DNA of 33,776 nt from a virus. The stretch spans positions 1-33,776 of the IMG/VR virus record IMGVR_UViG_3300011115_000933. The stretch is one strand, 5' to 3'. Under the pieces are notes generated by a model. It searched no databases and was not told where the DNA came from. It saw only the letters and a list, made by a program, of their open reading frames with translations. The position numbers and the translations under genes were made by a program. The first letter of the stretch is position 1. Every line of letters starts with the position of its first letter. Shown piece by piece: positions 1 to 33,776 of the stretch.

Positions 1-485
1 GCACGACAGGTCAGGTTCTTACAGGTGTAACAGGAGCAGATCCCGTTTGGGCATCACCAGCTACTTCTGGCACAGTTACCAGCGTTTCCGTAGTCAGTGC
101 AAACGGTTTAGCAGGGACAGTAGCTAACGCAACAACTACTCCAGAAATCACACTTACAACAACAAGTACAGGTATTTTATCAGGTAATGGTACTGCAATT
201 ACAGGTAGTGCAACGACTAACCATGCAGTTCAAATCGGAAATGCCGGAGGAAGTTTAACTTCAACTGCTGTTGGCACGACAGGTCAGGTTCTTACAGGTG
301 TAACAGGAGCAGATCCCGTTTGGGCATCACCAGCTACTTCTGGCACAGTTACCAGCGTTTCCGTAGTCAGTGCAAACGGTTTAGCAGGGACAGTAGCTAA
401 TGCAACAACTACTCCAGAAATCACACTTACGACAACAAGTACAGGCGTTTTATCAGGTGATGGTACTGCAATTACAGGTAGTGCA
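1..485 (+). repeat. 273-bp (91-codon) in-frame tandem repeat, left block
   Basis: Base 1 and base 274 begin the same sequence, so the period is 273 bp, exactly 91 codons. The match fades at about 485, where the fibre leaves the repeat. The two copies here share GADPV and TTTPE variants. The two copies at the right end of the window share GADPI and TTTPA. Confidence 0.95.
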
Positions 486-3828: not shown

Positions 3829-3922
3829 ATTCATATACGTTTCCTTGAGCTTCAATTTCATTAAAGGTTAGTGTGCATGAACACATTAGGTACGCACCTA
3901 ATAAAATTAATGCTTGTTTCAT
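3764..3922 (-). CDS. Second small predicted lipoprotein (52 aa), translationally coupled to the exonuclease
   Basis: ATG at 3922 overlaps the TGA of the exonuclease gene (ATGA), and GGAGGG lies just upstream inside that gene, a strong coupling signal. The product begins MKQALILLGAYLMCSCTLTF: a short basic start, a hydrophobic core and cysteines at 14 and 16 that can serve as lipobox. The mature part (CTLTFNEIEAQGNVYEFMDQ, then TLKTDSKID) follows the pattern of the lipoprotein at 3271-3453. The pair looks like diverged paralogues. The 3' end overlaps the doubtful rightward gene at 3565-3828. Confidence 0.65.
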   Translation of the reverse strand: MKQALILLGAYLMCSCTLTFNEIEAQGNVYEFMDQTLKTDSKIDANLHIPSL

Positions 3923-4785
3923 TTTCCCTCCAATCTGATTGTCCAGACTATTGTCATACTTTTTCTATATTTATCTAAATCCACACCTTTTAACTCCGGT
4001 ATATCTTTATATTGAACCTGTCCCTTTGGTGTTGTCTTTGTTATCTTTATTCCGTTTCCCGAACAATCCTCATCACCGCAAAGCTCTATTATTTTTTTTC
4101 GTAGATAATCCTTCTTGTTTTCCAGTGCCTTTAATTGAACATCGCAATCTCTATATTGATCTGAATAATCATTAAAAGATAAAGACCCGCTCATATCTTT
4201 GTAATCTTCTTGAGAAAGCGGGGGAGCTTCAAAAAAGATTATAGATTTCCAGAAGTCTCGAGCTTTAGGTAGATAATCTTTAACAAAGTTAGCGTCCGGT
4301 AAAACTTCTATACAGACACCTTTTTCACCATCGAAAGAGTAGTAATAGCATTTTTCCGCGCCTGTTACTAATAATTGATGCTGCATTTGTGATACATAAT
4401 ATTTTGGGATTTCTCCCTGTAATGCCAAGTCGTGGTTCTTTTTTCCATTTGCCTTTATTTCCAAAATGTATTTACCACACGAACTAATACCATCTAAGGA
4501 AGCGGCTAAAAAATTATACTCTGAGCTTTCCACGCATGCAGGTTGCATGTCGATTCCAAATTCTTCACAGAACGCGTCCAGAGCAACCGATTCAAGCGCT
4601 ATGCCTCTTTCCATAGCCCAATTAGTTTCTTGCTCTTTAACGATCCCTAACTTGCGTTGCCAACACTTGTATTTAGAAGTATAGGGTGAAATATCTAAAA
4701 CTGATGCGGCTTCGGATGCCATAATGTAACCGCGCCTCCAGTTTAACCATTCTTGAGATTTTTGCTTATGTTTAATAATTTTCAT
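3919..4785 (-). CDS. YqaJ-type viral recombinase / lambda-exonuclease-like nuclease
   Basis: 288 residues with the PD-(D/E)XK plan of the YqaJ/lambda exonuclease family. The N-terminal helix WLNWRRGYIMASEAASVL (13-30) is followed by MERGIALE (59-65), the metal-binding aspartate in SLDGI (D98), E-x-K in LEIKA (E109, K111) and QMQHQ (133-137). Such enzymes digest one strand of duplex DNA 5'-3' to leave a 3' tail for an annealing partner. The ERF gene directly upstream is that partner: its TGA overlaps this ATG at 4782-4785. Length is usual for phage members. Together they form a Red-like recombination pair, useful for repair and for building concatemers. Confidence 0.88.
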   Translation of the reverse strand: MKIIKHKQKSQEWLNWRRGYIMASEAASVLDISPYTSKYKCWQRKLGIVKEQETNWAMERGIALESVALDAFCEEFGIDMQPACVESSEYNFLAASLDGISSCGKYILEIKANGKKNHDLALQGEIPKYYVSQMQHQLLVTGAEKCYYYSFDGEKGVCIEVLPDANFVKDYLPKARDFWKSIIFFEAPPLSQEDYKDMSGSLSFNDYSDQYRDCDVQLKALENKKDYLRKKIIELCGDEDCSGNGIKITKTTPKGQVQYKDIPELKGVDLDKYRKSMTIVWTIRLEGK

Positions 4786-5444
4786 TCTTTACTTTTCAAA
4801 TCCTCAAAATATTTTAGACAATTATTAAATTTAATCTTAACATCTTCATACGCGCTTTCGTTAAGAGATTCAATATCTTTTGTTTTATATATCCCAATCA
4901 TCCAAGAATCTAATTTATTTTTTAAATCATCAGAAACCTTCATATACATTTCTTTTAATACCAAAACTTGGTGAATAGACATGTTTTTTGGGGTTACGCA
5001 TTCAGCATATGTAAGTACAGGTTCTTTTTGCTTAGAAGTTCCTCTACCAACAGCAACTTCAGCGTCGTCATCATCATCAGATGAAACAATTCCTAATGCA
5101 GCACATAGAGCATATCTTTTTCCATAAGATGACGCACTACCAACTGCTTGAGCATCCTGTTTAGTTATTGGAATAGATAACGGGCCAAACTCTATCCATT
5201 GACCAGACGTGTGAATAACCCTTGTTGTTATAGAAACAGAGGATTTATCTTCTGTATTCATGTCTTGAAGAATTGTTAATCCTTGTGATGTAGTAGGCAT
5301 TCTAATACAGTCCCAAATAGCTGCTAATGTGCTAAATTTGGATTTAAAATGAGGATTTGCTCCATCTTTTGAAGCGGGTTTAATTTCAGCTTGTGCTACT
5401 GATAAAGCTTTAGCTATTTCATTTATATTTTCAGATGTTTTCAT
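4782..5444 (-). CDS. ERF-family single-strand annealing protein
   Basis: 220 residues with the conserved ERF core: NPHFKSKFSTLAAI (30-43), HTSGQWIEFGPLSIP (78-92) and the signature QAVGSASSYGKRYALCAALG (99-118), followed by an acidic SSDDDDDAE stretch. The P22 Erf family anneals complementary single strands after resection. The C-terminal part (from about 145) is a separate, less typical helical region. The downstream exonuclease overlaps it by 4 bp. A TATAAT-like -10 on this strand (5474-5479) lies about 30 bp upstream, but its -35 spacing is poor, so it may instead be read from the main leftward promoter near 5957-5985. Confidence 0.88.
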   Translation of the reverse strand: MKTSENINEIAKALSVAQAEIKPASKDGANPHFKSKFSTLAAIWDCIRMPTTSQGLTILQDMNTEDKSSVSITTRVIHTSGQWIEFGPLSIPITKQDAQAVGSASSYGKRYALCAALGIVSSDDDDDAEVAVGRGTSKQKEPVLTYAECVTPKNMSIHQVLVLKEMYMKVSDDLKNKLDSWMIGIYKTKDIESLNESAYEDVKIKFNNCLKYFEDLKSKE

Positions 5445-9751: not shown

Positions 9752-10483
9752 TTAATCCTCAGCTTCATATTTTTTTAGTAAATCTGCGTAAAAGTCACAC
9801 ATTTCAAAATGATATTGGCACGTCTTTAATTGTGTGTTGATATGGTTCCATTCTTCAATACAGGCTAAACCCATTATAGTAGCAGCCGAGATTATAGTAG
9901 CAGCAATTTTAGCCCTTGGTTCCTTTGCACCAACAAAGGCTATTCCGACAATAAAGCAGTTTTTCCCCATGTCATAATCTGTTATGGTTGGAAGATACCA
10001 ACAACGTCTTTCAGCATCTTTAAAACAGAAGATACCACGTGTTTCATTATATTTATATTGATGTTTCCAATAGTCTATCTTTTTTTTAGAAACTTTTATC
10101 TTATAATCGTTGTGATGATAATCGCTGTCAGATGGTTCAAAATCAATTCTTACTAATGTACCAGCTCCTACAATCATCATTTTATTTTTTCTATGTAAAT
10201 TGCCAGTCCCTACAATCATCATTTTATTTTTTCTATCTAAATTGCCAGTCGCTACTGTCGCCATATATCCACGATTATCAATATTCCGCTCTAAGAAAGT
10301 ATATTCATTATTGGTCTTTGAATTATTTATAGCAGAGATTAATAACTCTATGTCTTGATCTGACAATTTAGTTTGTAATTCCACAGCATTAAGACTATTG
10401 CATTTTAGGTAATATATGTTAGCTATCACTAACAAGATAAAAACAACTCTTTCTATTATGGTCCATATTTTTTGATTTTGCAT
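9752..10483 (-). CDS. Hypothetical membrane protein with an internal 14-residue duplication (243 aa)
   Basis: Starts at ATG 10483 after AAGGAAAAAAA, overlapping the upstream gene by 28 bp. Residues about 10-27 (IERVVFILLVIANIYYL) form a membrane anchor, and a second hydrophobic stretch lies near IAATIISAATIMGLACI (about 195-211). Between them is a soluble part with strands and a CFKDAERRCWYLP segment. The GNL-RKNKMMIVG motif occurs twice in tandem, encoded by a 42-bp direct repeat. It is probably an envelope protein of unknown role, perhaps exclusion or lysis control, but nothing shows which. Confidence 0.65.
   Translation of the reverse strand: MQNQKIWTIIERVVFILLVIANIYYLKCNSLNAVELQTKLSDQDIELLISAINNSKTNNEYTFLERNIDNRGYMATVATGNLDRKNKMMIVGTGNLHRKNKMMIVGAGTLVRIDFEPSDSDYHHNDYKIKVSKKKIDYWKHQYKYNETRGIFCFKDAERRCWYLPTITDYDMGKNCFIVGIAFVGAKEPRAKIAATIISAATIMGLACIEEWNHINTQLKTCQYHFEMCDFYADLLKKYEAED
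10168..10251 (-). repeat. Two 42-bp tandem direct repeats
   Basis: Copies at 10168-10209 and 10210-10251 differ at two bases and stay in frame inside the 243-residue membrane protein, duplicating 14 residues. This looks like a recent slippage or unequal-exchange duplication. Confidence 0.9.
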
Positions 10484-11335: not shown

Positions 11336-11572
11336 TTATTTCCCCTTACAGATGTTTCTTTCTAATATTTCTAAACGATTATGCATCTCGATATACATTT
11401 TGCTTAATTCTCCATGACGGGCAAATAATGATTTTCTGACACGATTGTTAGACTCACTCAACTTTTCCACTTCGCTTTTCAAATCTCTGATAATTTTTCC
11501 ATTATCTAAAACCAAAGTTGGAACAGGCATAAAATCATCAAATAAATCTAATTGCATAACTTTCATTTTCAT
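11336..11572 (-). CDS. Hypothetical coiled-coil protein (78 aa), first gene of leftward operon
   Basis: Starts at ATG 11572; in-frame ATGs lie at codons 3 and 6, so MKVMQL or MQLDLF starts are possible. After a short N-terminus (MQLDLFDDFMPVPTLVLDNG) it is one long coiled-coil helix (IIRDLKSEVEKLSESNNRVR, then LSKMYIEMHNRLEILER). A predicted minus-strand promoter (11606-11634) lies about 35 bp upstream, and a degenerate copy of the phage palindrome (11575-11593) lies in the leader, so this gene is where the operon is probably regulated. No family recognised. Confidence 0.65.
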   Translation of the reverse strand: MKMKVMQLDLFDDFMPVPTLVLDNGKIIRDLKSEVEKLSESNNRVRKSLFARHGELSKMYIEMHNRLEILERNICKGK

Positions 11573-11574
11573 TT

Positions 11575-11593
11575 TGTAAATTCCGCTTTACGT
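11575..11593. promoter_or_regulatory. Degenerate copy of the phage 21-bp palindrome
   Basis: TGTAAATTCCGCTTTACGT matches the 19589-19609 site (TGTAAATCCGCTTTACAT core) with one inserted base and one substitution. It lies between the leftward promoter and the ATG at 11572, where a bound protein could block transcription or translation. Confidence 0.5.
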
Positions 11594-11605
11594 ATAATCT
11601 TGTAT

Positions 11606-11634
11606 ATGATAACATACATGATGATATATATCAA
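11606..11634 (-). promoter_or_regulatory. Leftward promoter of the accessory operon
   Basis: On the minus strand, TTGATA (11634-11629), a 17-bp spacer, then TATCAT (11611-11606), giving a predicted start near 11599. It is the only promoter-like match just upstream of the eight overlapping leftward genes 11572-9219. Confidence 0.5.
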
Positions 11635-11683
11635 CGTATATATGCAAAAGAGTTTACAAGTTTTGAAGGGATTTTAAAGAAAT

Positions 11684-11857
11684 ATGATAATTTCACTAAA
11701 TAAAGAATTGATGGATGAAGCAAGAGAAAAAAGTAAAAAGTACAAAACAACCTCTATACCATATTTTCAGAAGTATTTTAAGGTAGACTTTAATATCGCC
11801 GCTCAACTTAGCGCTATTTTTAAAGAAGAAAGTAGCATAGAAAAAGGCATCGATTGA
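11684..11857 (+). CDS. FtsK gamma-domain-like small DNA-binding protein (57 aa)
   Basis: ATG 11684 to TGA 11857, with AAAGAAAT before the start. The sequence NKELMDEAREKSKKYKTTSI, then PYFQKYFKVDFNIAAQLSAI and a final EKGID, follows the winged-helix FtsK gamma pattern: (D)xLxxEA, then S-I-x3-Q-(R/K)-x3-(V/I)-x-(Y/F)-N-x-A-A. In bacterial FtsK that domain reads the KOPS sequences that direct DNA translocation and contacts XerD. Here it is free-standing, with no ATPase motor. It heads the rightward late block just before the terminase genes. The similarity is from memory of the domain pattern. Confidence 0.55.
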   Translation: MIISLNKELMDEAREKSKKYKTTSIPYFQKYFKVDFNIAAQLSAIFKEESSIEKGID

Positions 11858-11919
11858 TTAACATAATTTTATATTATCAGACGTTCCACTAGGTAAAGTA
11901 GTGAAAAACAAGGAAAAAC

Positions 11920-11997
11920 ATGTATCACGAATTGAAAAAAAAGCAAAATAAAATTACCAGTATTAGGGGAAGTAATAAGATCGGTAAAAAAGGTTAA
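11920..11997 (+). CDS. Possible tiny basic peptide (25 aa)
   Basis: ATG 11920 follows AAGGAAAAAC and the frame ends at TAA 11997, three bases before the next ATG (12001). The peptide is MYHELKKKQNKITSIRGSNK followed by IGKKG. Good ribosome-binding spacing and tight packing with the next gene favour a translated leader peptide. Its size makes chance likely too. Confidence 0.3.
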   Translation: MYHELKKKQNKITSIRGSNKIGKKG

Positions 11998-12000
11998 AAA

Positions 12001-12201
12001 ATGAATATAGAAGTAAATCATAAATCAAGGTACGGAAAGGACTCATTTTATCCTATATCTGAAGATGCCAAATTCCTTTCTCAGGTTATAGGTAAGAAAG
12101 GATTTATGCTAAAACATTTGACTTTATTTAAAAATCGCGGGTGGAGTGTTGTTATTACAGCTATTCCGCAGTCGTTAGAAGAATATCTGAAGGTGAGTTG
12201 A
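12001..12201 (+). CDS. Hypothetical small protein (66 aa)
   Basis: Starts MNIEVNHKSRYGKDSFYPIS after GGTTAAAA, an imperfect Shine-Dalgarno. The middle EDAKFLSQVIGKKGFMLKHL, then TLFKNRGWSVVITAIPQSLE, could be a small alpha/beta unit with a GKKG loop that recalls KH-type GxxG loops, but this is too short to classify. It ends three bases before the 21-bp palindrome (12204), which separates it from the leaderless-promoter gene. No family recognised. Confidence 0.55.
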   Translation: MNIEVNHKSRYGKDSFYPISEDAKFLSQVIGKKGFMLKHLTLFKNRGWSVVITAIPQSLEEYLKVS

Positions 12202-12265: not shown

Positions 12266-12451
12266 ATGTCAGAACTAACCGTAATATTCAAAGACGAGCA
12301 TAGAACATATCGTCAAAAATTTCTTGCTTATCAACCATATTGCATCGATTTAGAAGATGATTATATATTGCAATGTATAGAAGAAGCTAAAAAAAACTTT
12401 GATGGTGAGCCTGATACTGTTCAAATAAAAATACATATGGAATTTAATTAA
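12266..12451 (+). CDS. Small acidic protein upstream of terminase (61 aa)
   Basis: Begins MSELTVIFKDEHRTYRQKFL and ends PDTVQIKIHMEFN; acidic in the middle (IDLEDDYILQCIEEAKKNFD). The alternation of strands and a central helix (about 30-43) suggests a compact alpha/beta protein. Its ATG lies at the predicted transcription start of a strong promoter with no ribosome-binding site. The TAA shares a base with the ATG of the terminase small-subunit gene (TAATG), so the two are probably coupled. Family not recognised. Confidence 0.6.
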   Translation: MSELTVIFKDEHRTYRQKFLAYQPYCIDLEDDYILQCIEEAKKNFDGEPDTVQIKIHMEFN

Positions 12452-12846
12452 TGGGAACACCAGGTGTGCCTTGTAATTTAACTGAAGATTTAATACTGAA
12501 TGCTATAAAGAAAGCTAGCGGTAGAATGAACAAGATCGCTGAAATATTAGATCTATCAATGACATGTGCTCGTGAGCATCTTTTTAGATATCCTGAATGT
12601 GTAAAATTATTAGCTAATGAACGTAATAAAAGAGATGAAAATCTTTTAAACGGTGCTGAAGATACCCTTCAATTTGCTATAGATAATCGACAAATAGATG
12701 TTAATGCAGCCCTTAAATCATCTTTCTTTGTTCTTAATAACAAAGGAAAACTACGTGGTTATATAGCACCACAGCAAGCTAATGATGAGAATATCGGTAA
12801 ATTAACACCGCAACAGATTACCGATGCAATTAATACAAGCGAGTGA
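12451..12846 (+). CDS. Terminase small subunit (putative)
   Basis: 131 residues. An N-terminal helix-turn-helix, EDLILNAIKKASGRMNKIAE then ILDLSMTCAREHLFRYPE (about 12-50), is followed by a helical oligomerisation region (RDENLLNGAEDTLQFAIDNR, then VNAALKSSFFVLNNKG) and a flexible C-terminus. This HTH-plus-helices plan, the length and the position overlapping the large subunit by 23 bp are typical of phage small terminases, which recognise the packaging start and regulate the motor. Primary-sequence recognition of this family is weak, so context carries much of the call. Confidence 0.7.
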   Translation: MGTPGVPCNLTEDLILNAIKKASGRMNKIAEILDLSMTCAREHLFRYPECVKLLANERNKRDENLLNGAEDTLQFAIDNRQIDVNAALKSSFFVLNNKGKLRGYIAPQQANDENIGKLTPQQITDAINTSE

Positions 12847-14332
12847 TCTTAAATCAAAGTCTTTTCGTTTGAATAATCTTTATCATATCATTGATAAAGA
12901 CGGTAATGATGTACAATTTAATCTTAATTCAGTTCAACAGAATGTTCTAGATAATCTTCATAAACGAAATCTTATTCTTAAAGCTCGACAACTAGGTATG
13001 AGCACGTTCAGTGTTTTGTATTTATTGGATGAGTGTATATGGAATAATAATCTATCTGCTGGTATTGTTTCGTATTCTATGGAACATGCTCAGCATATCT
13101 TTAAGCGTATTATTGGATATGCATTAGACCATCTTCCATCTTGGTTACATGTAGAAGTTATTAATAGGTCAGCACGTGAAATTACTTTTAAAAATGGTTC
13201 TGTTCTTCGTGTTGACACCACTTTACGCGGTGGCGCTTATCAACTTGTGCTTGTTTCTGAGTTTGGGAAAACTTGTGCTAGGAACCCGCTTAAAGCTGAA
13301 GAGGTAATAACCGGAACACTTCAAACAGTACCAAGAGACGGTCGTGTTATTATTGAAAGCACAGGCGAAGGAAGTGACGGTTTTTTTGCAGAAATGGTAA
13401 GTAAAGCCGCTTTACAAGGAAACGATAATCTTTCTTCATTAGACTATAAGCTTTTCTTCTTTCCTTGGTTCTCTGATAAGTCATACGCATTAGATCATAA
13501 AGTGCCTCTTGATATAGAAATAACTGATTATTTTAAAAAGATCGAAAGTGAATGTAAAACAAGCTTTACATATCCTCAAAAATATTGGTACGTACAACAG
13601 AAAGTTTTGCTAGCTGAAAAGATAAAGCAAGAATTTCCGTCTACTATATCAGAGGCATTTCTTAGCTCTTCAGATGCATATTACTTTGCGTTAGGAATAG
13701 ATGCCGCATACTCAAGCGGTAGATGCTTGCAATCTAGTCCATACGATCATACTCAGCCTGTTTACGTCGCCATGGACATAGGTGTTAACGATCTAACTGT
13801 CATGATATTCTTTCAAGTGTGCCACGGTGAAATTAGAGTCATAGATTATTACGCCGATAGCAACAAGGGAGTGGATTTTTATTGTAGATACATGCAGCAA
13901 GATAAACCATATGTTTATAATACAATATTCCTTCCTCATGATTCTGCAAAGCGCGACGGTATAGTCGTAGAGAATACATATGAACGAGAATTTAAAAAGC
14001 TATTCTCACATACGCAAGTAAAAGTATTAGTATTGAAAAGAACAGATAAACAGATACAGATATCTAATGCTAAGATCATGATGAATCGTTGCGTATTCAA
14101 TTTAAACAGGGTTAAATCATTAATTGATATGATAGGAAAATACCGTAAGAAATGGTCGGAGCAATACGGTAAATATCTAGATGAGCCCTACCATGGGATA
14201 GAGTCAAATTATAGCGATGCTTTTCAATATTTATGTCAAGCAGTCAATCATATAGAAACGATCGGTGGTGTTTCCGGAGCGTTAGAAAAGCATAAAAAAG
14301 CAGTAGAAGCACGCAATAAAATTATATGTTAA
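12824..14332 (+). CDS. Terminase large subunit (packaging ATPase/nuclease)
   Basis: 502 residues. ATPase half: Q-motif region NSVQQNVLDNL (35-45), Walker A-like KARQLGMST (53-61), Walker B YQLVLVSE (139-146) and coupling motif ESTGEG (178-183). Nuclease half (RNase H fold): VAMDIGVND (D318), HDS (372-374) and YSDAFQYL (D465), the expected acidic triad. The protein pumps DNA into the prohead through the portal and cuts it. Overlap with the small subunit by 23 bp and the portal gene next downstream are the usual arrangement. A perfect GTAAAGC/GCTTTAC palindrome (13401-13415) lies inside and resembles the regulatory palindrome; significance uncertain. Confidence 0.93.
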   Translation: MQLIQASDLKSKSFRLNNLYHIIDKDGNDVQFNLNSVQQNVLDNLHKRNLILKARQLGMSTFSVLYLLDECIWNNNLSAGIVSYSMEHAQHIFKRIIGYALDHLPSWLHVEVINRSAREITFKNGSVLRVDTTLRGGAYQLVLVSEFGKTCARNPLKAEEVITGTLQTVPRDGRVIIESTGEGSDGFFAEMVSKAALQGNDNLSSLDYKLFFFPWFSDKSYALDHKVPLDIEITDYFKKIESECKTSFTYPQKYWYVQQKVLLAEKIKQEFPSTISEAFLSSSDAYYFALGIDAAYSSGRCLQSSPYDHTQPVYVAMDIGVNDLTVMIFFQVCHGEIRVIDYYADSNKGVDFYCRYMQQDKPYVYNTIFLPHDSAKRDGIVVENTYEREFKKLFSHTQVKVLVLKRTDKQIQISNAKIMMNRCVFNLNRVKSLIDMIGKYRKKWSEQYGKYLDEPYHGIESNYSDAFQYLCQAVNHIETIGGVSGALEKHKKAVEARNKIIC

Positions 14333-17840: not shown

Positions 17841-18773
17841 ATGTCAGTAACAACAACTAGCGGCTACGGCTCAATGGCTGATAGATGGGCACACCGTGCA
17901 CTTCTACAACGTTCAAAGCCTCGTTGCGTACACAATCTTTTTGGTCGTGCATTTACATTGCCGCAAAAGAATACCGATACTATGGCGTTTAGACGTCAAG
18001 AAAACTTGAATTCTGATCCTGTTGTACTATCTCAAGATGCTGATCCAGCGCCTGAGCAAATACAAAAGTTTGATATTAACGTTACCATTCAAGAATTTGG
18101 TAAAGTTATTCTTCTTGGTCGTAAAGTTCTTTTAGTTGTGGAAGATGATACAGCTTCAGAAACAGCAGATAACCTATCTCAATGCATGCATACTATGCTT
18201 GATAAAGTTACACGTGACGTTTGGAATGCTTCAGTTCCTCAAATTTCTTGTCTTAATGGTATTAATGGAAATGTTATTACTGAATTAACACAGACAGACG
18301 TAAACCGTGCTATTCAATACTTAGATGATAACGATACAGAGCACATGACTCCAACCGTTAACGCTTCAAGAGATTTTGGTACAGGCCCTGTCGAAGCTGC
18401 ATTTTGGGTAACAGCTCATGTTAATCTAAAACCAGATATTCGTGCACTTGATGCGTTTGTTCCATATTCTCAATACGGCTCATTAAAACCTGTATTGCAA
18501 GCTGAATTTGGCGCAACTGATGAAGCTAGATGGGTAACATCTACATTAGTTGAAAAAAGCAGTGGTTCTCCAGTCGTTTATAACAACACATTTGTTGGTG
18601 CTAATGCTTACGGATATGTTGGTCTAGATGAAGTTTCTACAGAAATGATCTTAAAACCTCTTGGTTTTAATGATTATTTAAACCGTTTCCAATCTATGGG
18701 TTTTACAGCTTGGTTTAATGCTGCGATCTTAGATGATTCTCATATCGTAACATTGCTTTCTACAAAAGCATAA
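17841..18773 (+). CDS. Major capsid protein, N4-gp56 family
   Basis: 310 residues, starting 14 bp after the scaffold gene behind AAGGAAAATT. The region PQKNTDTMAFRRQENLNSDP, then VTIQEFGKVILLGRKVLLVV and SQCMHTMLDKVTRDVWNA, matches the N4-gp56 capsid pattern: unmodified strand pairs, TVTIxEYGxxIxLTD-like motif, long helix with LDxxTRD. Later DVNRAIQYLDDNDTEHMTPT and FVPYSQYGSLKPVLQAEFG belong to the HK97-like P and A domains. It forms the icosahedral shell. Confidence 0.82.
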   Translation: MSVTTTSGYGSMADRWAHRALLQRSKPRCVHNLFGRAFTLPQKNTDTMAFRRQENLNSDPVVLSQDADPAPEQIQKFDINVTIQEFGKVILLGRKVLLVVEDDTASETADNLSQCMHTMLDKVTRDVWNASVPQISCLNGINGNVITELTQTDVNRAIQYLDDNDTEHMTPTVNASRDFGTGPVEAAFWVTAHVNLKPDIRALDAFVPYSQYGSLKPVLQAEFGATDEARWVTSTLVEKSSGSPVVYNNTFVGANAYGYVGLDEVSTEMILKPLGFNDYLNRFQSMGFTAWFNAAILDDSHIVTLLSTKA

Positions 18774-32635: not shown

Positions 32636-33776
32636 ATGGCTGGTTTTGGAGTTGATTCTAATGGAACTGAAATAATGTGGTCTAATAATGTAGACTTTTC
32701 AGGGAATGTTATTCAAACTAGACAAATTACTGCTGACGGTCAACTTCTTATTGGATCAACAGCTTCTCCAAATATACGATCAGCTACACTAACTGCAGGA
32801 ACAGGCGTTTCTATAACAAATGGCCCAGGTTCTATTACCATTGGATTAGCAGGTGGTGCGGCAATTCAGACAATTACAGGTGATACAGGTGGAGCAGAGG
32901 TTCCTTTAACTGGTAATTTTAACCTTAAAGGCACAGCCAATCAGATTACTGTTACCGGAACCACTAATACTCAAACATTTAGTCTTATTGGGCCTTATAC
33001 GCCAGCTACTTATACTAATCATGGCGTACTTTTAGGTCAAGGAACATCCTCTATTGTAGCAACAAGTGTTGGTACAACAAATACAGTTCTTTTAGGAAAT
33101 ACCGGATCAGATCCAAGTTTTGGTGCCGTTTCAAATGCAGCTTTAGTCAACAGTACAGTAACCCTTAATAATGGTAATAACATAACGGTTACTGGAGGTG
33201 GACCTTTAACTTTAGGTGGAACGGCTTCTTTTGATTTAACTGGAACGACTAACCATGCAGTTCAAATCGGAAATGCCGGAGGAAGTTTAACTTCAACTGC
33301 TGTTGGCACGACAGGTCAAGTTCTTACAGGTGTAACGGGAGCAGATCCTATTTGGGCATCACCAGCTACTTCTGGAACAGTTACTAGCGTTTCCGTAGTC
33401 AGTGCAAACGGTTTAGCAGGGACAGTAGCTAATGCAACAACTACTCCAGCAATCACACTTACAACAACAAGTACAGGTATTTTATCAGGTAATGGTACTG
33501 CAATTACAGGTAGTGCAACGACTAACCATGCAGTTCAAATTGGAAATGCCGGCGGAAGTTTAACTTCAACCGCTGTTGGCACGACAGGTCAGGTTCTTAC
33601 AGGTGTAACAGGAGCAGATCCTATTTGGGCATCACCAGCTACTTCTGGCACAGTTACTAGCGTTTCCGTAGTCAGTGCAAACGGTTTAGCAGGGACAGTA
33701 GCTAATGCAACAACTACTCCAGCAATCACACTTACAACAACAAGTACAGGTATTTTATCAGGTAATGGTACTGCAA
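32636..33776 (+). CDS. Tail-fibre protein, N-terminal part (continues beyond the window; C-terminus at 1-1205)
   Basis: Starts behind AGAGAGTAATTAT; open to the window end, where one base of a codon remains. N-terminal MAGFGVDSNGTEIMWSNNVD, then SGNVIQTRQITADGQLLIGS, is the attachment region. A variable beta region leads to the 91-residue repeat (TNHAVQIGNAGGSLTSTAVG, then GQVLTGVTGADPIWASPATS) from about codon 204. The left-edge partial CDS (1-1205) starts with two bases of a codon and the same repeat, so joining the ends keeps the frame. The intact fibre is at least 780 residues. Confidence 0.8.
   Translation, partial: MAGFGVDSNGTEIMWSNNVDFSGNVIQTRQITADGQLLIGSTASPNIRSATLTAGTGVSITNGPGSITIGLAGGAAIQTITGDTGGAEVPLTGNFNLKGTANQITVTGTTNTQTFSLIGPYTPATYTNHGVLLGQGTSSIVATSVGTTNTVLLGNTGSDPSFGAVSNAALVNSTVTLNNGNNITVTGGGPLTLGGTASFDLTGTTNHAVQIGNAGGSLTSTAVGTTGQVLTGVTGADPIWASPATSGTVTSVSVVSANGLAGTVANATTTPAITLTTTSTGILSGNGTAITGSATTNHAVQIGNAGGSLTSTAVGTTGQVLTGVTGADPIWASPATSGTVTSVSVVSANGLAGTVANATTTPAITLTTTSTGILSGNGTA
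33244..33776 (+). repeat. 273-bp (91-codon) in-frame tandem repeat, right block
   Basis: The same unit as at 1-485: starts of matching sequence at 33306 and 33579 are 273 bp apart. The window stops at unit position 198 while the left end restarts at unit position 1, so 75 bp plus an unknown number of whole 273-bp units is missing between the ends. Confidence 0.95.

Follow-up and report, generated by a model that had tools for sequence, protein, structure and literature searches.

The gamma domain of FtsK is normally part of a motor protein, and an isolated gamma-like peptide encoded near a phage terminase raises the question of what such a domain would do for the phage. The gene, here called g57, was analysed in a 33,776-nt stretch of viral DNA (IMG/VR record IMGVR_UViG_3300011115_000933), referred to below as the window, which carries genes for a P22-like portal, a terminase large subunit, a major capsid protein and a DnaC-like helicase loader as well as Erf/YqaJ recombination genes. 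g57 lies on the plus strand at 11684..11857, with an ATG start at 11684 and a TGA stop at 11857, and encodes 57 amino acids. The codon content of its frame (+0.21 bits per codon) is comparable to that of the neighbouring genes, the other frames of the region give -0.88 and -1.15 bits per codon, and the opposite strand is negative throughout; the ORF is a real gene that is coding-like in its own frame only. The original prediction described a free-standing, motor-less gamma-like peptide, and this description holds: the ORF stands alone, its model consists of three helices (residues 7-20, 25-32 and 36-55), and no match to the RecA-type FtsK motor (PF01580) was found anywhere in the window. The predicted motif (EA, S-I-x3-Q-K, F-N-x-A-A) was likewise found in g57.

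The sole Pfam match of g57 was FtsK_gamma (PF09397; E=0.0034), in which residues 7-43 align to profile positions 4-40 of 63 with a score of 17.5 bits, short of the gathering cut-off of 30.6 bits. Searching the same profile against the six-frame translation of the window genome gave g57 an E-value of 3.9e-4 (15.8 bits), and the NCBIfam search returned insignificant, unrelated matches only. A gamma HMM built without g57, which includes a wingless homologue from the related phage G016, scored g57 at 22 bits, while the best of 17,350 scored shuffles of g57 reached 10.3; the same HMM placed g57 at the top of 28,388 six-frame ORFs from the first 130 loci, behind the known gamma domains. When the HMM was restricted to canonical gammas, g57 scored 13 bits, compared with 9.1 for the best shuffle, and its E-value across all ORFs was 0.12. 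Sequence comparison by itself therefore gives modest evidence, and the fold match matters for the case. In hhalign, g57 alone against eight canonical gammas gave 85%, two neighbouring ORFs gave 0.2% and 0.01%, and the value with the G016 protein was 95%. Close relatives of g57 were found neither in viral_contigs, whether g57 was queried as a single sequence or together with the G016 protein, nor among cultured phages, nor in the PDB by phmmer.

The AlphaFold2 model of g57, predicted from the single sequence with no alignment or templates, has a pLDDT of 84.5 and contains three helices and no strand. When it was compared with 350,542 PDB chains using Foldseek, ranks 1-12 were all FtsK-gamma, with probabilities of 0.91-1.00, TM values of 0.59-0.68 and weak E-values of 0.19-0.77. 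The top structures were 2ve8, 2ve9, 2j5o and 2j5p; the XerD-FtsK-gamma complex 5dcf stood at rank 47 and rose to rank 5 on realignment. However, realignment with VIA-align scored homeodomains, other helix-turn-helix (HTH) proteins and ribosomal proteins level with gamma (Z 5-6), and the fold match alone is therefore not decisive. As predicted by the model, g57 has the three-helix core of the gamma fold, but the winged helix originally proposed has to be given up, since the ORF ends ahead of the wing; g57 is an incomplete gamma domain. The HMMs, hhalign and Foldseek all led to gamma rather than to no match or to another fold, and g57 is probably, though not certainly, a remote homologue of FtsK-gamma.

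In E. coli FtsK, residues R1300, E1303 and E1306 matter for KOPS (PMC2680272). At these positions g57 has Q, A and K in an ungapped alignment; moreover, it has I at R1297, and the wing residue R1320 is absent. In 83 viral gamma domains, R1320 is present in 81 and R1297 is R in 77, while E1303 is E or D in 82 and E1306 is E in 78. g57 is thus an outlier among viral gammas and should not read KOPS. Judged from these residues, the KOPS recognition put forward in the original prediction is unlikely, because g57 has no wing and R1300, E1303 and E1306 are replaced. The octamer count in the window gave 0 copies of GGGNAGGG and 1 copy of GAGAAGGG, GAGAAG occurs 8 to 5, and no KOPS bias was found. Among GC-rich octamers, TACAGGTG showed the strongest strand skew (11:0); it was rejected as a candidate, being scattered and partly a product of a 273-bp fibre repeat.

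The same 273-bp repeat, 96-97% identical, occupies both ends of the window (1-485 and 33244-33776) in a long fibre-like frame with 91-residue repeats. As the window ends in the same repeat array, the record probably represents a nearly complete genome with its break in the array. A 42-bp tandem duplication, 95% identical, is present at 10167-10255 within a 243-aa minus-strand ORF. The major capsid protein (17841-18773) is 82-99% identical across 80 IMG/VR loci sampled at many sites, the TerL of the same phages being mostly 55-68% identical and their TerS hardly alignable. Host assignment from this capsid protein was abandoned: only two MAG contigs matched (Bacteroidales and Parcubacteria), which may be binning errors.

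The contacts of E. coli FtsK-gamma to XerD are made by Q1288, R1289, R1292, I1293, G1294 and N1296 (PMC5052618, Table 1). At these positions g57 has Q K K V D N, that is, two identical residues, three conservative replacements and one change (G1294 to D). The mostly kept strip is suggestive of XerD contact. The G016 protein has Q R Q V N T, keeping Q1288 and R1289 with R1292 replaced by Q and N1296 by T; as this only related wingless protein does not repeat the g57 pattern, the pattern is no family rule. The conservation is also partly a matter of ascertainment, because the strip is what made g57 recognisable, and the alpha2-alpha3 strip of gamma contacts DNA as well as XerD. A nine-residue FtsK segment (1289-1297) fused to XerC weakly stimulates XerCD recombination. 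Likewise, FtsK carrying R1300A or E1303A is defective in KOPS recognition and still supports XerCD recombination (PMC2680272). Scanning the window with E. coli dif arms, which may not be those of the host, revealed no dif-like site above chance (best two-arm score 15/22), and XerD-arm-like sites numbered 32 against 55 expected from mononucleotide shuffles. One candidate just past g57, GATTAACATAATTTTATATTAT (from 11855 on), matches 9/11 XerD-arm letters; it was rejected, since its XerC arm is poor and arm-like sites fall below the shuffle expectation.

The left neighbour of g57 is a conserved 78-aa gene on the minus strand (11336..11572), whose homologues adjoin the 66-aa gene in three related records, L048, L068 and L073. 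In the window this conserved 66-aa gene lies to the right of g57 at 12001..12201 on the plus strand. The gap between the two genes is 66, 74 and 69 nt long in L048, L068 and L073, respectively, and 428 nt in the window, with g57 inside; g57 thus seems to be an accessory gene inserted next to a divergent promoter region. The AT-rich divergent intergenic stretch at 11573..11683 is, by comparison with the relatives, the probable site of these promoters; promoter-like matches around it were no more frequent than expected by chance. The 143 nt between g57 and the 66-aa gene (11858..12000, plus strand) form, together with g57, the extra sequence relative to the three records, and contain no dif-like site above chance. 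A conserved motif of the TTTACATGAA-N-TATATA type precedes the homologue of the 66-aa gene within the intergenic gap (L048 4216-4281, L073 3443-3511; also upstream of that homologue in the related L049 and L131) and is probably the promoter of the phage. Further downstream on the plus strand are a 131-aa putative small terminase subunit (12451..12846), so named from its position and a weak HTH_8 match (E=0.062) and devoid of gamma similarity, and the terminase large subunit gene terL (12824..14332). The YqaJ/RecE-like exonuclease and the Erf-like annealing protein are encoded on the minus strand at 3919..5444, and no tyrosine recombinase was found in the window. The closest relative, L040 (TerL 83%), has different genes upstream of terL. 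Its translation shows a 421-aa ParB-like/DNA-methylase-like gene (303-1568) immediately before TerS, a place taken by small ORFs in the window.

FtsK_gamma was present in one of the 50 related records, that of G016, whose TerL is ~60% identical. The 60-aa wingless protein of this phage (L119/L120) matches FtsK_gamma with 27.9 bits (E=1.9e-6; 26.4 bits in the six-frame search), gamma chains take the top four Foldseek ranks with its model, and it aligns with g57 without gaps over 42 residues (24% identical, 64% similar). Its gene is separated from terL by 11 kb and is found on the other strand, downstream of the Erf and YqaJ genes. Given this location and the relatives' gap without g57, the terminase proximity of g57 is not conserved and looks incidental. 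The tie to terminase and packaging drawn in the original prediction is weakened accordingly, as the G016 gene sits in a recombination operon and the window has a separate TerS candidate.

Gamma modules as such are common in phages and mostly fused, and the free-standing kind was known before. Among 50,697 records, 369 matched the E. coli gamma query and 388 the B. subtilis query, the E. coli query sequence being consistent with the residue numbering in PMC8190038, PMC2680272 and PMC5052618. At least 467 IMG/VR contigs carry gamma; in a sample of 80 such contigs, 2/80 had it in ORFs no longer than 130 aa, and most gammas were C-terminal in longer proteins. In cultured phages, gamma was found in RdgC-annotated proteins (L122 538-1698, L130 583-1695), in a Gordonia phage protein that faintly resembles a DNA polymerase III beta clamp (L121 697-1734, E=0.041) and in a Pseudomonas phage protein (L125 1036-1968). 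Several cultured-phage gamma proteins are annotated as FtsK translocase though too short for a motor. In Brevibacillus phage Jenst (L124 1459-1680), an in-frame TAA interrupts a free-standing gamma ORF, which the annotation lists as two small genes. Free-standing gamma ORFs of phages have been reported, their role not being known (PMC8190038).

The three-helix core, S-I-x3-Q-[RK] and F/Y-N-x-A-A are common to g57 and FtsK_gamma (E. coli FtsK 1266-1329 and the SpoIIIE C-terminus); g57 differs in the missing wing and motor, in the replacement of R1297, R1300, E1303 and E1306, and in a score under the curated cut-off. The G016 protein (60 aa), the L142 protein (65 aa) and those of Jenst resemble g57 in being short and almost a gamma-like domain alone. 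However, the L142 protein has the complete winged domain (83.5 bits), and the wing sequence is retained in what is left intact of the Jenst ORF; winglessness is shared with g57 only by the G016 protein, at 21% identity. In the Bacillus phages Sam46 and Sam112, as in the window, gamma is encoded in the packaging region (PMC8190038), but there it forms the N-terminus of the small terminase, joined to Terminase_2, with its DNA-contact residues conserved, whereas g57 is separate and degenerate.

Several explanations of g57 were weighed. If g57 were a chance ORF, or a short three-helix protein resembling gamma by convergence, this would account for the score below the Pfam cut-off, the 13 bits with the canonical-only HMM and a Foldseek E-value of 0.19 at best; we consider this improbable, as the shuffles never match the score of g57, the G016 alignment is free of gaps, hhalign gave 85%, gamma chains head the Foldseek list and the composition is coding-like. 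By analogy with the Sam46 small terminase and its N-terminal gamma, g57 might serve in packaging by tagging phage DNA for terminase; its position 1 kb upstream of terL would suit this role, and a gamma-small terminase fusion is on record (PMC8190038). Such a role is nevertheless very improbable given the separate TerS candidate without gamma similarity, the lack of g57 in the same gap of three relatives, and the single FtsK_gamma among 50 related records, far from terL and on the other strand.

In FtsK, each KOPS site is occupied by three gamma domains (PMC5052618), and a gamma mimic could therefore poison FtsK assembly; g57 might join or block gamma assemblies and disturb segregation or division as a means of host takeover. 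The PHROG FtsK/SpoIIIE-like family is indeed filed under host takeover, but the match of g57 to it is insignificant (E=0.086), and having lost the DNA-specific contacts g57 should stay out of KOPS complexes, which leaves interference with host FtsK unlikely. A less remote alternative is that g57 is a small HTH DNA-binding protein of non-KOPS specificity, either a regulator of the divergent promoters or a generic binder, its gamma fold reflecting ancestry only. The fold matches homeodomains and HTH proteins at comparable Z on realignment, the gene adjoins the divergent promoter region, and the alpha2-alpha3 strip retains basic residues. Against it, neither an inverted repeat nor an operator was identified, the homologue in G016 lies inside an operon and not in a divergent gap, and the wing arginine kept in 81 of the 83 viral gammas is absent; on balance this role is a close rival of the reading favoured below, only slightly less probable than it.

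The reading that we tentatively favour, from residue comparison, is that g57 is an accessory, KOPS-blind gamma derivative that may act on host XerD; a Xer ligand is the most likely role because the KOPS residues are lost while most of the XerD strip is kept. According to this proposal, g57 would have been gained between the divergent promoter and the conserved 66-aa gene as a stripped-down gamma, with three helices, lost KOPS-reading residues and most of the alpha2-alpha3 XerD strip, and would act on the host Xer recombinase as a small, diffusible ligand. The protein might switch XerD on without FtsK, for example resolving phage multimers that arise from Erf/YqaJ recombination, or it might occupy XerD in place of FtsK. 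The presence of 5dcf in the Foldseek list, the strip itself and the precedents of the 1289-1297 fusion and the R1300A/E1303A mutants are consistent with the proposal, as are the combination of Erf and YqaJ with no tyrosine recombinase found and the location of the G016 gene in an operon on the Erf-YqaJ side. A mobile-element activator of XerD is also on record: XafT, from an integrative element of Vibrio cholerae, offers by its description (PMC9765430) an analogy in which such a factor replaces FtsK-gamma, although, unlike in that element, no integration module or dif-like site was found in this phage. Arguing against the proposal, the strip is a DNA contact too and its conservation partly reflects ascertainment, the acidic D at G1294 would face a XerD surface with acidic contacts, the G016 strip differs, and no dif-like site exceeded chance with the E. 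coli arms. Promoter use, XerD binding and a benefit to the phage are what we infer from the arrangement described above.

A wider and more speculative possibility, which we regard as rather unlikely, is that the wingless, KOPS-blind gammas of g57 and G016 represent a phage family of stand-alone Xer activators or decoys that would uncouple XerCD from FtsK during lytic growth. The loss of KOPS reading together with a mostly kept XerD strip would naturally separate the two roles of FtsK-gamma, and it predicts that g57 acts on XerD and not on KOPS. If this is true, g57 would give the phage a means of acting on the universal system of chromosome-dimer resolution.
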